Shown piece by piece: positions 23,851-34,179 of a stretch of 64,000 bases of DNA (positions within the stretch are counted from its first letter, which is position 1; every line of letters begins with the position of its first letter). The position numbers and the translations under genes were made by a program. A model generated the notes under the pieces. That model was given only the letters and a program-made list of their open reading frames with translations, ran no database searches and was not told the origin of the DNA. Origin of the DNA: Cyclobacterium sp. (GTDB lineage Bacteria; Bacteroidota; Bacteroidia; Cytophagales; Cyclobacteriaceae); the NCBI RefSeq assembly GCF_014762705.1, contig NZ_JABURL010000123.1:1-64000 (forward strand), given 5' to 3'.

Positions 23851-23926
23851 GCCTACTCTGCGAAGAGGCACATGAATAACAGGTAGGCAGTATGGTTACC
23901 GAAAAATTACTCCTACACATAGCAGG

Positions 23927-23963
23927 AAAAAATCCTGCCGGATAATGCCGGCAGGATTTTTTT
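23927..23963 (+). terminator. Rho-independent terminator closing the RND operon
   Basis: A perfect 15-base inverted repeat (AAAAAATCCTGCCGG and its complement) with a 6-base loop ends in seven T residues. The A-rich left arm would let it act in both directions. Confidence 0.9.
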
Positions 23964-24132
23964 GTCCTTTTCCCCAGGAAGGGGATGCAATCATTTAAAT
24001 TCCGCCAAGCAATCCGGGAAGATAAAGCTGAATTTTTTAGTGGATAACAGACAATTGCAGTACTTCCTTTGACTGAATAAAGTTTTGATACCAGCATTCC
24101 CGATGATTTTAAAGAAATAATTAATAATATTA

Positions 24133-24207
24133 AACCCTGACTAAAAGTTGATTTTGTGAGGGATATCCAACTGGATTTTGTAAGCTATCCCTGATTATGT
24201 CAGGGTT
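24133..24207 (+). promoter_or_regulatory. Nested inverted repeats upstream of the first Crp/Fnr gene
   Basis: Outer arms AACCCTGAC (24133-24141) and GTCAGGGTT (24199-24207) are perfect complements. Inside them lie GGGATA (24160-24165) and TATCCC (24186-24191), and a direct repeat of GATTTTGT. The right arm ends 12 bases before the ATG. It may be an operator or a 5'-leader fold. The rest of the 369-base gap 23851-24219 holds the terminator above and nothing else recognised. Confidence 0.5.
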
Positions 24208-24219
24208 ATAATATGTTAT

Positions 24220-24717
24220 ATGCCATTAGAAAAAATAATTTCCGTGAAAGAAATAACAATTAAAAAGGGTGAAACAATACAGCGAAGTGGAGAGATTGGA
24301 ACAAAAGTATATCATGTAAAATCTGGACTATTACGCAGCTATTCTATTGATAAAAATGGCAAGGAAAATATTTTCATGTTTGCACCTGAAGGATGGGTTA
24401 TTGCAGACACTTGCGAACCTGAATCAAAATCAACTCTTTTTATAGATGCATTAGAAGATTCCACTGTTATTGAATTCAAAAAAGACCTCGAACGAGAAAA
24501 ACAGAATGTTGGAGCGATCACAAAAAGGTTGAATGCAATGCAAAATCGAATCATGATGCTAATTAGCACAAACGCCATTGAACGTTATGAGTACTTCATT
24601 CAAACCTATCCCAATATTGTCCAGCGTGTTCCTCAACACATGATTGCTTCATATATTGGTGTGAATCCTGAAACATTAAGCGCTGCCAAAGCAAAACGCC
24701 TGAAGAAAAGCAGTTAA
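24220..24717 (+). CDS. Crp/Fnr family transcriptional regulator, short form
   Basis: 165 residues, shorter than the usual 190 or so because the N-terminus begins close to the cyclic-nucleotide-binding fold. The cNMP-binding-like beta roll covers about residues 10-85 (VYHVKSGLLRSYSIDKNGKENIFMFAPEGW). The C-terminal helix-turn-helix is QRVPQHMIASYIGVNPETLS. No cysteine cluster for an Fe-S centre is visible, so it is not FNR-like. It lies 81 bases before a small membrane-protein gene that it may control. Nested inverted repeats directly upstream suggest autoregulation. Base composition is more AT-rich than the flanking efflux operon. Confidence 0.85.
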   Translation: MPLEKIISVKEITIKKGETIQRSGEIGTKVYHVKSGLLRSYSIDKNGKENIFMFAPEGWVIADTCEPESKSTLFIDALEDSTVIEFKKDLEREKQNVGAITKRLNAMQNRIMMLISTNAIERYEYFIQTYPNIVQRVPQHMIASYIGVNPETLSAAKAKRLKKSS

Positions 24718-24761
24718 TTCATTTCTTATGAAATCATAATGGATAGGTTTTACCCTAGAAT

Positions 24762-24769
24762 TAACTTTG
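24762..24769 (+). promoter_or_regulatory. Possible -7 element for the small membrane-protein gene
   Basis: TAACTTTG matches TAnnTTTG and lies 29 bases before the ATG at 24799. No good TTTG is found about 19 bases upstream; an activator such as the neighbouring Crp/Fnr protein could replace it (inference). Confidence 0.4.
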
Positions 24770-24798
24770 CACTTCAGTAAAACAATATCAAAATAGAA

Positions 24799-25248
24799 AT
24801 GAAAAATTTATTAAAAGTATCAGCTGTACTTTGGATCATTTGGGGACTTATACACGTTTTGGCAGGAGTAATGACAATGAAAGGAATATTGACCAATGAC
24901 ATTGCTTCGTCAGTTGCAGGAATTGCTGATGCCGTGGACTCTGAATCGTTGCAAATGAACTACCCAAAAGCAGCAGGTGCAGTAATCGGACAACACGGAT
25001 TTAACTTACTTTGGATTGGATTGGTAACACTCATAAGTGCTTTCTTTATTTGGAAAGGAAATAAAAATGCAATTTTTCTTGCTGCAATTTGTGGTGGTTT
25101 AGCTGATTTAGGCTATTTCCTATTTATGGATTTAGGCGAATATGTAAATTTTATGCCTGGAACCGTAATGACTATAGTTTCATCTTTAGCAATAATTACA
25201 TCCTTTTATGCTTATTCTAAAAGCAGGAAACTAAATACATCCGAATAA
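24799..25248 (+). CDS. Small four-helix inner-membrane protein of unknown function
   Basis: 149 residues with four hydrophobic segments (about 5-27, 65-87, 92-111 and 118-138). The N-terminal SAVLWIIWGLIHVLAG and the HGFNLLWIGL stretch recall small integral membrane proteins seen beside Crp-type or AraC-type regulators in Bacteroidota, but I cannot assign a family. It has no catalytic motif. It follows the short Crp/Fnr gene with its own possible promoter and is probably the regulator's target. The stop codon is followed within 15 bases by the 3' end of the minus-strand intron-like element. Confidence 0.7.
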   Translation: MKNLLKVSAVLWIIWGLIHVLAGVMTMKGILTNDIASSVAGIADAVDSESLQMNYPKAAGAVIGQHGFNLLWIGLVTLISAFFIWKGNKNAIFLAAICGGLADLGYFLFMDLGEYVNFMPGTVMTIVSSLAIITSFYAYSKSRKLNTSE

Positions 25249-25261
25249 AAAACGGCATACA

Positions 25262-25848
25262 ATCGAGTAGCCTGACCTGAGCCAAATGGCTCAGGTTGAG
25301 GCTCTCACACCACCAAGGTGCGACAAGAAGTCGCTTTGATAACTGTTTAACGTTCCATGAACGATTAAACCTTGTGTTCCATCACAAGTAGCCTATGGAC
25401 ACGTGCATTTCTGGTAACGGAATTGTGCGAAGCTATCCGGACAATATAGCCCGTAAAGAGATTCTGCTAAGAATGTCTGTTGCGCACCAACGTCAGGTGC
25501 GGGGGAGTATTGGGTATGGTCAACATACGTGAACTGCTGATAAATGTCGTGACGTGTAGACAGCGAAAGACGTTGACAGGCTGTGACTAAAGCGGTCTGC
25601 CTGGCAGGCTTTGCGGTGTCTGCTACATGGATTTCAATTTTCCCGGCAAAGAGGCAGGATCAAAACCCTCCTATCATCTAATCGTAACTTGGTAAGTACT
25701 CCGAGACAGCTTGCCCCAACACCTCCTGGCGATCCCCAAGCTAAGGGATACAGAAATTCGGCACAGGCTACTGATGGGGATTAGTACAGGCTTTCACCCG
25801 TTGGAACGGTCAACTTTTTGACCTATATTCACCATTCAAGGCACACAC
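25262..25848 (-). mobile_element. ORF-less group IIC-like intron or remnant
   Basis: Read on the minus strand, the segment begins GTGTGTGCCTTGAATGG (class C introns start GUGUG) and continues with GGGTGAAAGCCTG near the 5' end. It ends with GGTGGTGTGAGAG (25302-25314), a 9-bp domain-VI-like hairpin (25275-25296) and CTACTCGAT, the 3' terminus common in class C introns. A domain-V-like hairpin (GCGAC/GTCGC, 25320-25334) lies just before that. No reverse-transcriptase reading frame exists in its roughly 585 bases. Domain V looks degenerate, with several G-U pairs in the lower stem, so splicing is uncertain. It fills most of the 746-base gap between two island genes. The exact 5' boundary is uncertain by a few bases (25846 or 25848). 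Confidence 0.55.
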
Positions 25849-25906
25849 ATTGGCTTGAGTACAGCGGGAAGGAAGCGAATAAAATAAATTTAGTATATTA
25901 AATGAA

Positions 25907-25963
25907 GTTCGGGAAAGCCGGGGGATTGGGCTCCGAAAACCCCCACAGCACCCAAGCCCGAAC
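25907..25963 (+). repeat. 57-base imperfect inverted repeat upstream of the second Crp/Fnr gene
   Basis: Outer arms GTTCGGG and CCCGAAC are perfect complements; GGGGG (25920-25924) and CCCCC (25940-25944) pair inside. It is much more GC-rich than its surroundings and ends 31 bases before the ATG. It could be an operator, an mRNA hairpin, or a recombination site left by insertion. Confidence 0.5.
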
Positions 25964-25994
25964 CTTGCCATTAATTTGGAAAATATAAAAACAA

Positions 25995-26576
25995 ATGGAA
26001 AAATTACTCTTTGATTTCATCTCAAAATATATCACCCTCACAGCGGATGAAGAAAAAGCTTTAATAGACCTAAATATCTTTCGTTCTTTTAAAAAAGGAA
26101 CTTTACTGTTAGCGGAGGGACAAAAGTCGAACAATGGTTATTTTGTATTAAAAGGCTGCATTCGAATCTATTATATGATTGATGGAGAGGAGAAAACAAC
26201 CGCTTTTTATACCGAAATGGAAGGTTTTACCCCTCCAGGTGTGGTGGACAAAAAGCCATCGAAGTTCTATGTTTCCTGTGTCGAGGACTCGATTCTTACC
26301 ATTTCTGACCCTAGTATGGAAGAAGAGATTTTCCAAAAATTTCCAAAATTTGAAACAATGTGCCGGGTTTTATCGGAAGAGCTTCTGGTAAAGCAACAGC
26401 TTGATTTTGATACCTTTAAAACCTCATCCCCTGAGCAGCGTTACCTTAAACTTTTAGAAAATCGCCCCGATTTGATTCAGCGTGTTCCGCAATATCAATT
26501 AGCAAGTTTTTTGGGTATTAAACCGCAATCTTTGAGCAGGTTACGTGCAAGAGTACTTGAAAAAAATAAGAGATAA
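25995..26576 (+). CDS. Crp/Fnr family transcriptional regulator
   Basis: 193 residues, full length. The cNMP-binding-like domain covers about residues 25-115 (FKKGTLLLAEGQKSNNGYFVLKG at its start). A helical linker follows, then a C-terminal winged helix-turn-helix with QRVPQYQLASFLGIKPQSLSRLRA. This is the common Bacteroidota subgroup; no cysteine ligands are present. It probably controls the outer-membrane protein gene 84 bases downstream. It is the second such regulator in the island and shares the QRVPQ...ASxxG HTH pattern with the first, but the rest is diverged, so they are not a recent duplication. Confidence 0.88.
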   Translation: MEKLLFDFISKYITLTADEEKALIDLNIFRSFKKGTLLLAEGQKSNNGYFVLKGCIRIYYMIDGEEKTTAFYTEMEGFTPPGVVDKKPSKFYVSCVEDSILTISDPSMEEEIFQKFPKFETMCRVLSEELLVKQQLDFDTFKTSSPEQRYLKLLENRPDLIQRVPQYQLASFLGIKPQSLSRLRARVLEKNKR

Positions 26577-26623
26577 AATCCCTTTCTTAACTTAAGTGAA
26601 CGATTATCGGTTTCGCACTCCCC

Positions 26624-26631
26624 TATTTTTG
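26624..26631 (+). promoter_or_regulatory. Possible -7 element for the outer-membrane protein gene
   Basis: TATTTTTG fits TAnnTTTG and lies 29 bases before the ATG at 26661. The -33 region has no clear TTTG, which would fit activation by the upstream Crp/Fnr protein (inference). Confidence 0.35.
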
Positions 26632-26660
26632 TCATATCGTTTTACATTAACTAAACAGAT

Positions 26661-27281
26661 ATGCAAAAGAAATTTTTATGGATTGGAATTGTTTTAGCTT
26701 TGACAAGCAGTTTTAAGGTCAATGCACAATACTCTATGCAGGATAGCAATTCCAAAAGATATTTTATTGGAAGTACATTTTTCGTCCTGGGAAATTTCGT
26801 TGAGAGCAACCAACCTGATTTTGCTCAGCTTAATTTTGGCTACCGCATCACAGAAAAGAATGTGGTATCCCTAGAGCTAAAAACCTGGAAATACGCCTGG
26901 TCCCTGGGTATTCCCTATGGAGATTCTTATGAAGCACCGGAAGAAAAGTTTCCCGGCTACATCAGAGAATATGGCTTTGCAGTAGCTTATCAGCGATTCT
27001 TGTGGAAGGGCCTTTATGCTGGAGTTCACGTAATGAATGCCTGGCAAAGCTTTGTTGACGAGGACAACCAGAAAATTGGTAAGGGCTTTCAGATTTTCAA
27101 CACCTATAGAGTGGGCTATCACATTAAACTATTTAGAAACAGAATATTTATAGAACCATCTTTAGCTATTACGCATCGTCCGTACCACACAAAAATGCCT
27201 GATTCCTTTAAACAACTTGATGACAAAAATTCAAAATTCTTTTTCGGAGAACCGGGTCTGCATTTTGGGTTTAATTTTTAA
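26661..27281 (+). CDS. Secreted beta-barrel-like outer-membrane protein, unknown function
   Basis: 206 residues. A signal peptide (MQKKFLWIGIVLALTSS, then KVNAQ with cleavage after NA) precedes a chain with alternating aromatic/polar strands: FIGSTFFVLGNF, QLNFGYRITEKNVVSLELKTW, YGFAVAYQRFLW, YRVGYHIKLF, and a terminal HFGFNF ending in Phe, the usual signature of a small outer-membrane barrel of about eight strands. I cannot assign a named family. It is three bases before a lipoprotein gene, so they are co-transcribed, and both probably answer to the Crp/Fnr gene upstream. Confidence 0.75.
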   Translation: MQKKFLWIGIVLALTSSFKVNAQYSMQDSNSKRYFIGSTFFVLGNFVESNQPDFAQLNFGYRITEKNVVSLELKTWKYAWSLGIPYGDSYEAPEEKFPGYIREYGFAVAYQRFLWKGLYAGVHVMNAWQSFVDEDNQKIGKGFQIFNTYRVGYHIKLFRNRIFIEPSLAITHRPYHTKMPDSFKQLDDKNSKFFFGEPGLHFGFNF

Positions 27282-27284
27282 TCG

Positions 27285-27653
27285 ATGAAAACTATCCTGA
27301 ATCTAACAAAATCAGTCATTTTCGTATTCTCATTCGCACTAATTTCATGCGAAAAAGAAGACCCCCATTTCTCACCTACAAATTTGTGCGAAGTACAAAA
27401 CCCCGTACAGGAAGTAGAATGGCTAAAAAATGCCATTGATGAAGTGCGTAGTGATGAATACTCCTATTATTCCACGGCTTTGTATCAAGGTGAAAGGGTC
27501 TTCTTCTATGGAAATTGCGACCCACTGATCAATTATGCATCATTCATTAGAAACTGTGCCGGCGATAATTTAGGAAATACAGAGGAGCTTTATAATAGAC
27601 TTTCAGAAATAAATGTGCTATGGAAACACGAAAACTCAAAATGTATTTTTTAA
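27285..27653 (+). CDS. Small lipoprotein of unknown function
   Basis: 122 residues. The signal sequence ends in the lipobox ALISC, so it is lipid-anchored. The mature part is acidic and has cysteines in NLCEVQNP, YGNCDPL, IRNCAG and SKCIF, enough for two disulfides. The pattern of an early C-x-x-x-N-P, then EWLKNAIDEV and GERVFFYGNCD, resembles small Bacteroidota lipoproteins of the DUF6970 kind (recall only). It begins three bases after the outer-membrane protein gene stop. Function unknown. Confidence 0.7.
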   Translation: MKTILNLTKSVIFVFSFALISCEKEDPHFSPTNLCEVQNPVQEVEWLKNAIDEVRSDEYSYYSTALYQGERVFFYGNCDPLINYASFIRNCAGDNLGNTEELYNRLSEINVLWKHENSKCIF

Positions 27654-27845
27654 TACAATCATTTACCCCAAATAATCAATAGTTTAATGTTTAATAGGTC
27701 CAATATTAATTGTATTAATAATGATAGGGTATAAAAATTAAAACCTTCGAAAAAGTCGATGGACTTGAGAATATGTATGCTAGCCGGCTCAGAAAAAGGG
27801 ATCTGCAACTAAGCACTGAAAGGGATTCAGTTTTCTCAATCCGGA

Positions 27846-33973: not shown

Positions 33974-34004
33974 TTTGTCGATGCAAAAATTTTATTTACC
34001 TTTG
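33974..34004 (+). promoter_or_regulatory. Bacteroidota primary-sigma promoter of the SRP RNA
   Basis: TTTG (33974-33977), exactly 19 bases, then TACCTTTG (33997-34004), matching TTTG-N19-TAnnTTTG. The RNA 5' end expected about 5 bases later coincides with the start of the SRP RNA stem. Confidence 0.85.
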
Positions 34005-34007
34005 TCA

Positions 34008-34092
34008 TGAGCGGCACGACCAGCTCCTGCTAAATCCCCCAGGTCCGGAAGGAAGCAAGGGTAGGCGGTTGTAGCGGTGCGATGCCGCTTAT
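34008..34092 (+). ncRNA. ffs: Signal recognition particle RNA, small bacterial type
   Basis: The apical SRP loop GGTCCGGAAGGAAGCAAGGG is present and carries the GGAA tetraloop and the asymmetric loop that bind Ffh. The terminal stem pairs AGCGGCA (34010-34016) with TGCCGCT (34083-34089), followed by a run of T residues that ends transcription. Length of about 80-85 bases fits the 4.5S type lacking the Alu domain. A textbook promoter lies immediately upstream. Confidence 0.95.
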
Positions 34093-34179
34093 TTTTTTAT
34101 CCTTTTCCCCAACACTTCCCGCTTTTTATTAATTTTGATTTAAATTTACCAGCATACATCAAAAACCATACTTATTAAA

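Follow-up and report, generated by a model that had tools for sequence, protein, structure and literature searches.

The composite element and its flanks

The window (the whole stretch analysed, 64,000 nucleotides from a Cyclobacterium sp. contig) contains a variable hotspot (23900..27815) that lies between a tolC-like gene and an agmatine-deiminase-like gene. Two cNMP-binding (Crp/Fnr-type) regulator genes lie in this hotspot, and a Bacteroidales small SRP RNA (RF04183) is found elsewhere in the window at 34002-34094 (+). Inside the hotspot, an intron remnant on the minus strand (25262..25848) is flanked by two open reading frames of the plus strand (24799-25248 and 25995-26576) and is antisense to both. 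The former is an accessory gene at this locus that encodes a 149-aa protein with no Pfam match and stops 13 nt before the remnant; it is absent from the sampled orthologous loci and has homologues elsewhere in the family.

The earlier note on this DNA had described the segment as an ORF-less group IIC-like intron, antisense to its neighbours. The ends and the orientation that it reported are real. Read directly on the minus strand (25848→25262), the segment starts with GTGTGTGCC, carries GGTGGTGTGAGAG and a 9-bp hairpin (ACCTGAGCC/GGCTCAGGT), and finishes with the domain VI (D6) hairpin followed by CTACTCGAT, thereby presenting both the GTGYG 5' end and the D6 with a ...CTACTCGAY 3' end by which group IIC introns are recognized. 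Reading of the ORFs revealed no reverse transcriptase (RT) gene inside 25262-25848, and neither an RT nor a complete domain V (D5) was found on either strand. Related copies, proposed as a check on the initial description, do exist: the 5' ∼60 nt and the 3' ∼55 nt of the remnant match other places in the same genome at 87-98%. Given these genome-wide matches and the occurrence of the same ends around a same-strand RT in full-length IIC introns, the ends of the remnant are beyond chance. Approximately 380 of the 587 nt of the segment, however, belong to the 5' domain of an unrelated chloroplast-like (CL)-type intron on the plus strand.

The outer intron is of group IIC

At both ends, the segment agrees with RT-encoding group IIC introns from the same genus and family. 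The 5' part (25699..25848, minus strand; inner boundary approximate) begins with GTGTGTGCCTTGAATGGTGAATATAGG... and comes from a group IIC(-attC) intron. RT-bearing IIC introns in the same orientation (L018, L054 and L125-L136) share its first ∼60 nt at 90-98%. At the other end, the residual 3' strand of IIC domain V (CTTGGTGGT; 25309..25317, minus strand), whose 5' strand and loop are gone, matches the intact D5 haplotype GAACCGCCAAGTACGAGACCCGTACG-CTTGGTGGT of L123, L155 and L156. It is followed by the D5-D6 linker and domain VI (25262..25308, minus strand), with the 3' end CTACTCGAT and the same D6 type as in introns L123, L129 and L144.

Introns with the GTGTGTGCC start carry a same-strand RT that is closest to the GsI-IIC RT (267 bits) and then to the 7uim maturase (249), and scores far lower against LtrA (135 bits) and T.el4h (111); this assignment to class IIC comes from a PDB comparison of the G067 copy. 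Of these, 7uim is a second group II maturase, while LtrA is of class IIA and T.el4h of class IIB. Full-length members (∼1.85-2.3 kb) are found in Algoriphagus, Litoribacter, Belliella, Echinicola and other genera and finish with D5-D6-CTACTCGAT. Those of 1.85 kb have the layout hairpin, GTGTGTGCC ... D5 ... CTACTCGAT, T(A/G)..., and supply the intact D5 used for comparison. The segment has no RT in cis, but an RT-bearing relative with the same 5' end (L018, truncated at a contig end) is present in the same genome.

Other ORF-less IIC elements with both ends, 413-495 nt in length, were observed in L199 (minus, 1501-1962), L180 (plus, 1501-1913) and L179 (minus, 1501-1995). In L199 and L180, the 5' strand of D5 contains a small hairpin repeat (TGGGACTGAGCGT..AAAATGAT..ATCATTTTAG..), which also occurs dispersed through the genus. 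The idea of a mobile subfamily of compact ORF-less elements was tested with a 462-nt element of G543 and rejected: there were only partial matches and no clean multi-copy unit.

The inner intron is a CL-type 5' domain on the plus strand

The sole match of the segment in an Rfam scan is to RF02012 (group-II-D1D4-7) at 25370..25508 (99.6 bits, gathering 34) on the plus strand; it thus flags the strand opposite to the outer intron. RF02012 introns elsewhere (in G249 and in numerous genomes from a single distant family within the phylum) have a group II RT further downstream on their own strand. The strand of RF02012 is thus correct, and the possibility that it is a wrong-strand family was ruled out by the RTs found on its strand in many genomes. 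The upstream flanks of the RT-bearing RF02012 introns all differ, with similarity starting exactly at GTGCGAC or a variant thereof. GTGCGAC is also found at 25318 on the plus strand of the window, and similarity to the G249 intron runs from there through domain I to ∼25698.

The RF02012 match, the alignment with the G249 intron and the conserved boundary define 25318..25698 (plus strand; 3' limit approximate) as the 5' domain (domain I) of an IIB/CL-type intron that lacks D2-D6 and the RT. Its RF02012-type D1-D4 region has an exact 5' end, while D5-D6 and an RT downstream on the CL strand are absent from the segment. The fragment begins exactly at the CL intron 5' end and is joined antisense into IIC domain V. 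The RT of the G249 intron has T.el4h (6me0), the RT of an IIB intron, as its closest solved structure (526 bits).

Domain V is disrupted

The earlier note had recognized a domain V with several G-U pairs in this region, which turned out not to be a D5. A search of both strands with the D5 model RF00029, extended to E<=1, gave no match in the segment; the match that it does have is to RF02012 (plus strand). Fourteen distinct chimeras, the one in the window among them, keep the D5 3' strand, but on the 5' side they have the CL intron 5' end in reverse complement, with the junction (slash) reading ...GTCGCAC/CTTGGTGGT; ACCACCNNN is the complement of the IIC D5 3' strand. Intact D5s of the family are of the type GAACCGCCGTATACGAGACCCGTACGTACGGTGGT and show the compensating variants CCAAG/CTTGG, CCGGA/TCCGG and CCCGG/CCGGG. 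Among seven distinct intact D5s, 98.9% of the cells are paired and covariation reaches 0.286 (0.088 when shuffled), whereas in the 14 distinct chimera copies 78.6% are paired and covariation is 0.042 (0.045 when shuffled). Thus, the pairing is not maintained across copies, although the intact-D5 control does covary. In the hairpin that can be drawn for the chimera, each of the three pairs atop the lower stem is broken in between 6 and 13 of the 14 copies, and the upper stem is the CL end's own short hairpin.

Where a functional group IIC intron would have a covarying domain V hairpin with both strands, only the 3' strand is left and, with complete domain V missing, the segment is not a compact ribozyme. 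Judging from the sequence, splicing or retrohoming in cis is not expected, because D5, the RT and most of the remaining domains are missing from either strand. Of the two origins initially suggested, a decayed copy or a compact element mobilized in trans, decay is borne out by the loss of the RT, most of IIC D1-D4 and the D5 5' strand; the compact ribozyme is not, and mobilization in trans found no support in the form of a clean multi-copy unit. The initial observation was thereby partly confirmed and its interpretation partly supported.

The attC-like setting and the hotspot

The 5' exon of the remnant contains an attC-like imperfect hairpin (25849..25970, minus strand) with the box TGGCAAG at 25964-25970 and the arms GGCTTGGGTGCTGTGGG/CCCGCTGTACTCAAGCC at 25942-25958 and 25852-25868. 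Taken alone, this hairpin has little statistical weight (p about 0.12-0.15); the other insertion sites, however, show the same geometry. Upstream of the IIC 5' end there is an imperfect hairpin with arms of ∼17-25 nt and a loop of mostly 54-74 nt, preceded by an AAC(G) box at ∼17 of 25 sites. The arm sequences vary by site yet stay complementary, and 13 of the 25 sites rank above 95% of random genomic stretches; the likeness of all these hairpins to attC is one of shape only. IIC-attC introns insert at the attC bottom strand, after the hairpin and antisense to cassette genes (PMC7923331), and the remnant agrees with them in orientation and position. Its antisense orientation would be accounted for by the upstream hairpin, which resembles attC, the target of such introns. 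Many chimeras adjoin attC-like hairpins and are antisense to cassette-like genes.

The integron integrase model (TIGR02249) had 12 matches in this genome, none of them above the 265-bit cut-off (best 119). A complete integron was therefore rejected, and the setting resembles a CALIN. On contigs C120 of this genome and C22 of G067, co-oriented ORFs alternate with remnants. Two integrase-less arrays (L016 1-7000, corresponding to 28-35 kb of C120, and L047 4400-18200 of C22) have attC-like hairpins and IIC remnants between co-oriented accessory genes, and several of these genes match anti-phage defence models. Among the cargo of arrays and related loci are a TIR protein of the CAP12/Pycsar type, a Fic protein (G124), and HEC-04-like and PDC-type candidates. 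One block, consisting of remnant, hairpin, ORF and remnant, is shared at 88% by the two species (this genome and G067); it breaks off at the remnant's 3' end, beyond which they have different genes.

In G545, the tolC-like gene is separated from the agmatine-deiminase-like gene by a nearly empty interval of ∼0.26 kb. In G538, this interval measures 2.8 kb and holds a TIR-like reading frame and an IIC remnant with a recognizable D5, and it contains different genes in G540, G124, G542 and G067.

Copies of the chimera and their descent

The CL 5' part occurs in this setting in ∼24 copies (one of them weak) from 7 of the 149 family genomes, with four copies in this genome. The D5 junction is identical in nearly all of the 24 aligned chimera copies. 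The other junction is variable: copies in L047 (near 14.2 kb) and L048 (near 5.9 kb) extend to CL D3, and those in L053 and L054 retain only the first ∼200 nt of CL. The CL copies form one group, separate from G249. Both the haplotypes of the D5 3' strand and the D6 types are found dispersed across the CL tree. Since they do not track this tree, one insertion inherited by simple descent does not suffice as an explanation; a better fit would be a single acquisition with repeated later exchange at the junction, or else joining that happened more than once. Candidate mechanisms for the junction are homing of the CL intron into the D5 complement, RT template switching at D5, and recombination.

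A survey of 148 family genomes yielded no intact nested parent, i.e. an RT-bearing CL intron inside an IIC D5. At the strict cut-off, they contain a single RT match, that of an RT-bearing CL intron in G126, which is sited elsewhere. A CL-type intron with an RT reading frame on contig C42 of G126 (L056 1500-5300) lies between identical 183-bp inverted repeats. Carriage by a plasmid or phage was considered and rejected, with three short plasmid matches of 70-80% and no phage match.

Origin of the composite element

The segment is very probably a non-functional composite relic in an integrase-less cassette hotspot, made of decayed IIC-attC intron ends around an inverted CL 5' domain. A group IIC-attC intron would have inserted after an attC-like hairpin, antisense to the cassette genes of the variable Cyclobacterium hotspot. 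A CL-type (IIB) intron would then have become joined antisense inside IIC domain V such that its 5' end precisely abutted the D5 3' strand, and deletion would have taken D2-D6 and the RT of CL as well as the rest of D1 to D4, the RT and the D5 5' strand of IIC. We infer this order of events and, likewise, a spread and reshuffling of the copies by cassette movement, gene conversion and homologous recombination between repeats. Speaking against the reading as a whole are the failure to find an intact nested parent, the scatter of the D5/D6 haplotypes, the weakness of the window's own attC-like hairpin and the lack of an integrase match above the cut-off in this genome.

It is extremely unlikely that the segment is instead a compact group IIC intron without an ORF, able to splice and dependent on intact IIC introns for an RT that mobilizes it in trans. 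Such an intron would account for the precise IIC ends at several attC-like sites, in the presence of IIC RT genes in related genomes and of other short elements with both ends (413-495 nt), but not for the missing D5 5' strand with its pairing not kept, nor for the loss of most of IIC D1 and D2-D4 around an interior that is another intron reversed; moreover, the short elements are not clean multi-copy units. Euglena group III introns can retain only DI and DVI and, by analogy, the chimera might have spread as a D5-less non-autonomous unit, with D5 catalysis and RT provided in trans by intact IIC introns. The precise 3' ends amid unrelated flanks and an internal deletion shared across loci favour this, as do two copies in G018 that are 97.8% identical over ∼460 nt while their neighbouring ORFs and flanks differ. 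Gene conversion between array copies also explains that identity, however, the 5' parts and deletion points vary between copies, and we know of no bacterial precedent for a trans-supplied D5; we consider such spread very unlikely. There is a slight chance, smaller still, that a bacterial D5-less group II derivative composed of the IIC 5' part and D6 only has been trans-mobilized into attC-like sites by intact IIC introns and, just as doubtfully, that the antisense pieces of another intron are filler within it. If true, bacteria would have their own equivalent of group III introns, or a group II 'MITE'.

The chimera might also be useful to cassettes as a recombination substrate, a promoter carrier or a 3'-UTR RNA, which we consider unlikely. 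It does recur between co-oriented ORFs in arrays, the 88% block of two species stops at its 3' end, and outward promoters have been reported for IIC-attC introns, as indicated by a reference listed in PMC4424553. On the other hand, RF02012 scores drop across copies from 99.6 to ∼30 bits and shared deletions disrupt a D1 hairpin, so that there is no sign of selection on the CL RNA. The composite relic is the preferred reading.

Relation to known systems

Surveys of group II introns detect them by RT or domain V and would miss these remnants, which lack an RT and a complete D5, although they recur in several genera of one family. No description of this IIC/CL combination was found in the open-licence papers searched. 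Through these remnants, IIC-attC-type introns are seen in Bacteroidota, in attC-like cassette arrays that carry defence-like genes (for CAP12/Pycsar-type TIR, Fic, HEC-04 and PDC-type proteins), and a junction that recurs at one domain V position merits a mechanism.

The outer intron resembles group IIC-attC introns of the S.ma.I2 type (PMC7923331, PMC4424553) in its 5' and 3' ends, its D6 and the IIC-type RT of its full-length relatives and, probably, in being sited immediately 3' of a bottom-strand hairpin that resembles attC, in antisense to cassette genes. Unlike these introns, the remnant is without the RT, most of D1-D4 and half of D5, its target is (A/G)AT/T or similar rather than TTGT/T, and its host belongs to Bacteroidota. 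The inner part shares the domain I sequence and the exact GTGCGAC start with IIB/chloroplast-like RF02012 introns (one distant family of the phylum, G249 and the Methanosarcina control), but nothing beyond this 5' domain survives; it lies antisense within a IIC intron and has no RT or D5-D6. As in twintrons (nested group II introns, e.g. in Methanosarcina acetivorans; PMC4424553), one group II intron lies inside another. The inner intron is, however, inverted and truncated here, not inserted in sense and spliceable, which makes sequential splicing impossible. The closing comparison is with CALINs, clusters of attC sites without an integrase, that harbour CL1 and IIC-attC introns (PMC7923331): co-oriented accessory genes between hairpins, intron fragments of both classes and no recognized integron integrase are common to both settings, whereas in the arrays described here, whose hairpins resemble attC in shape only, the two intron classes are fused in one repeated element.
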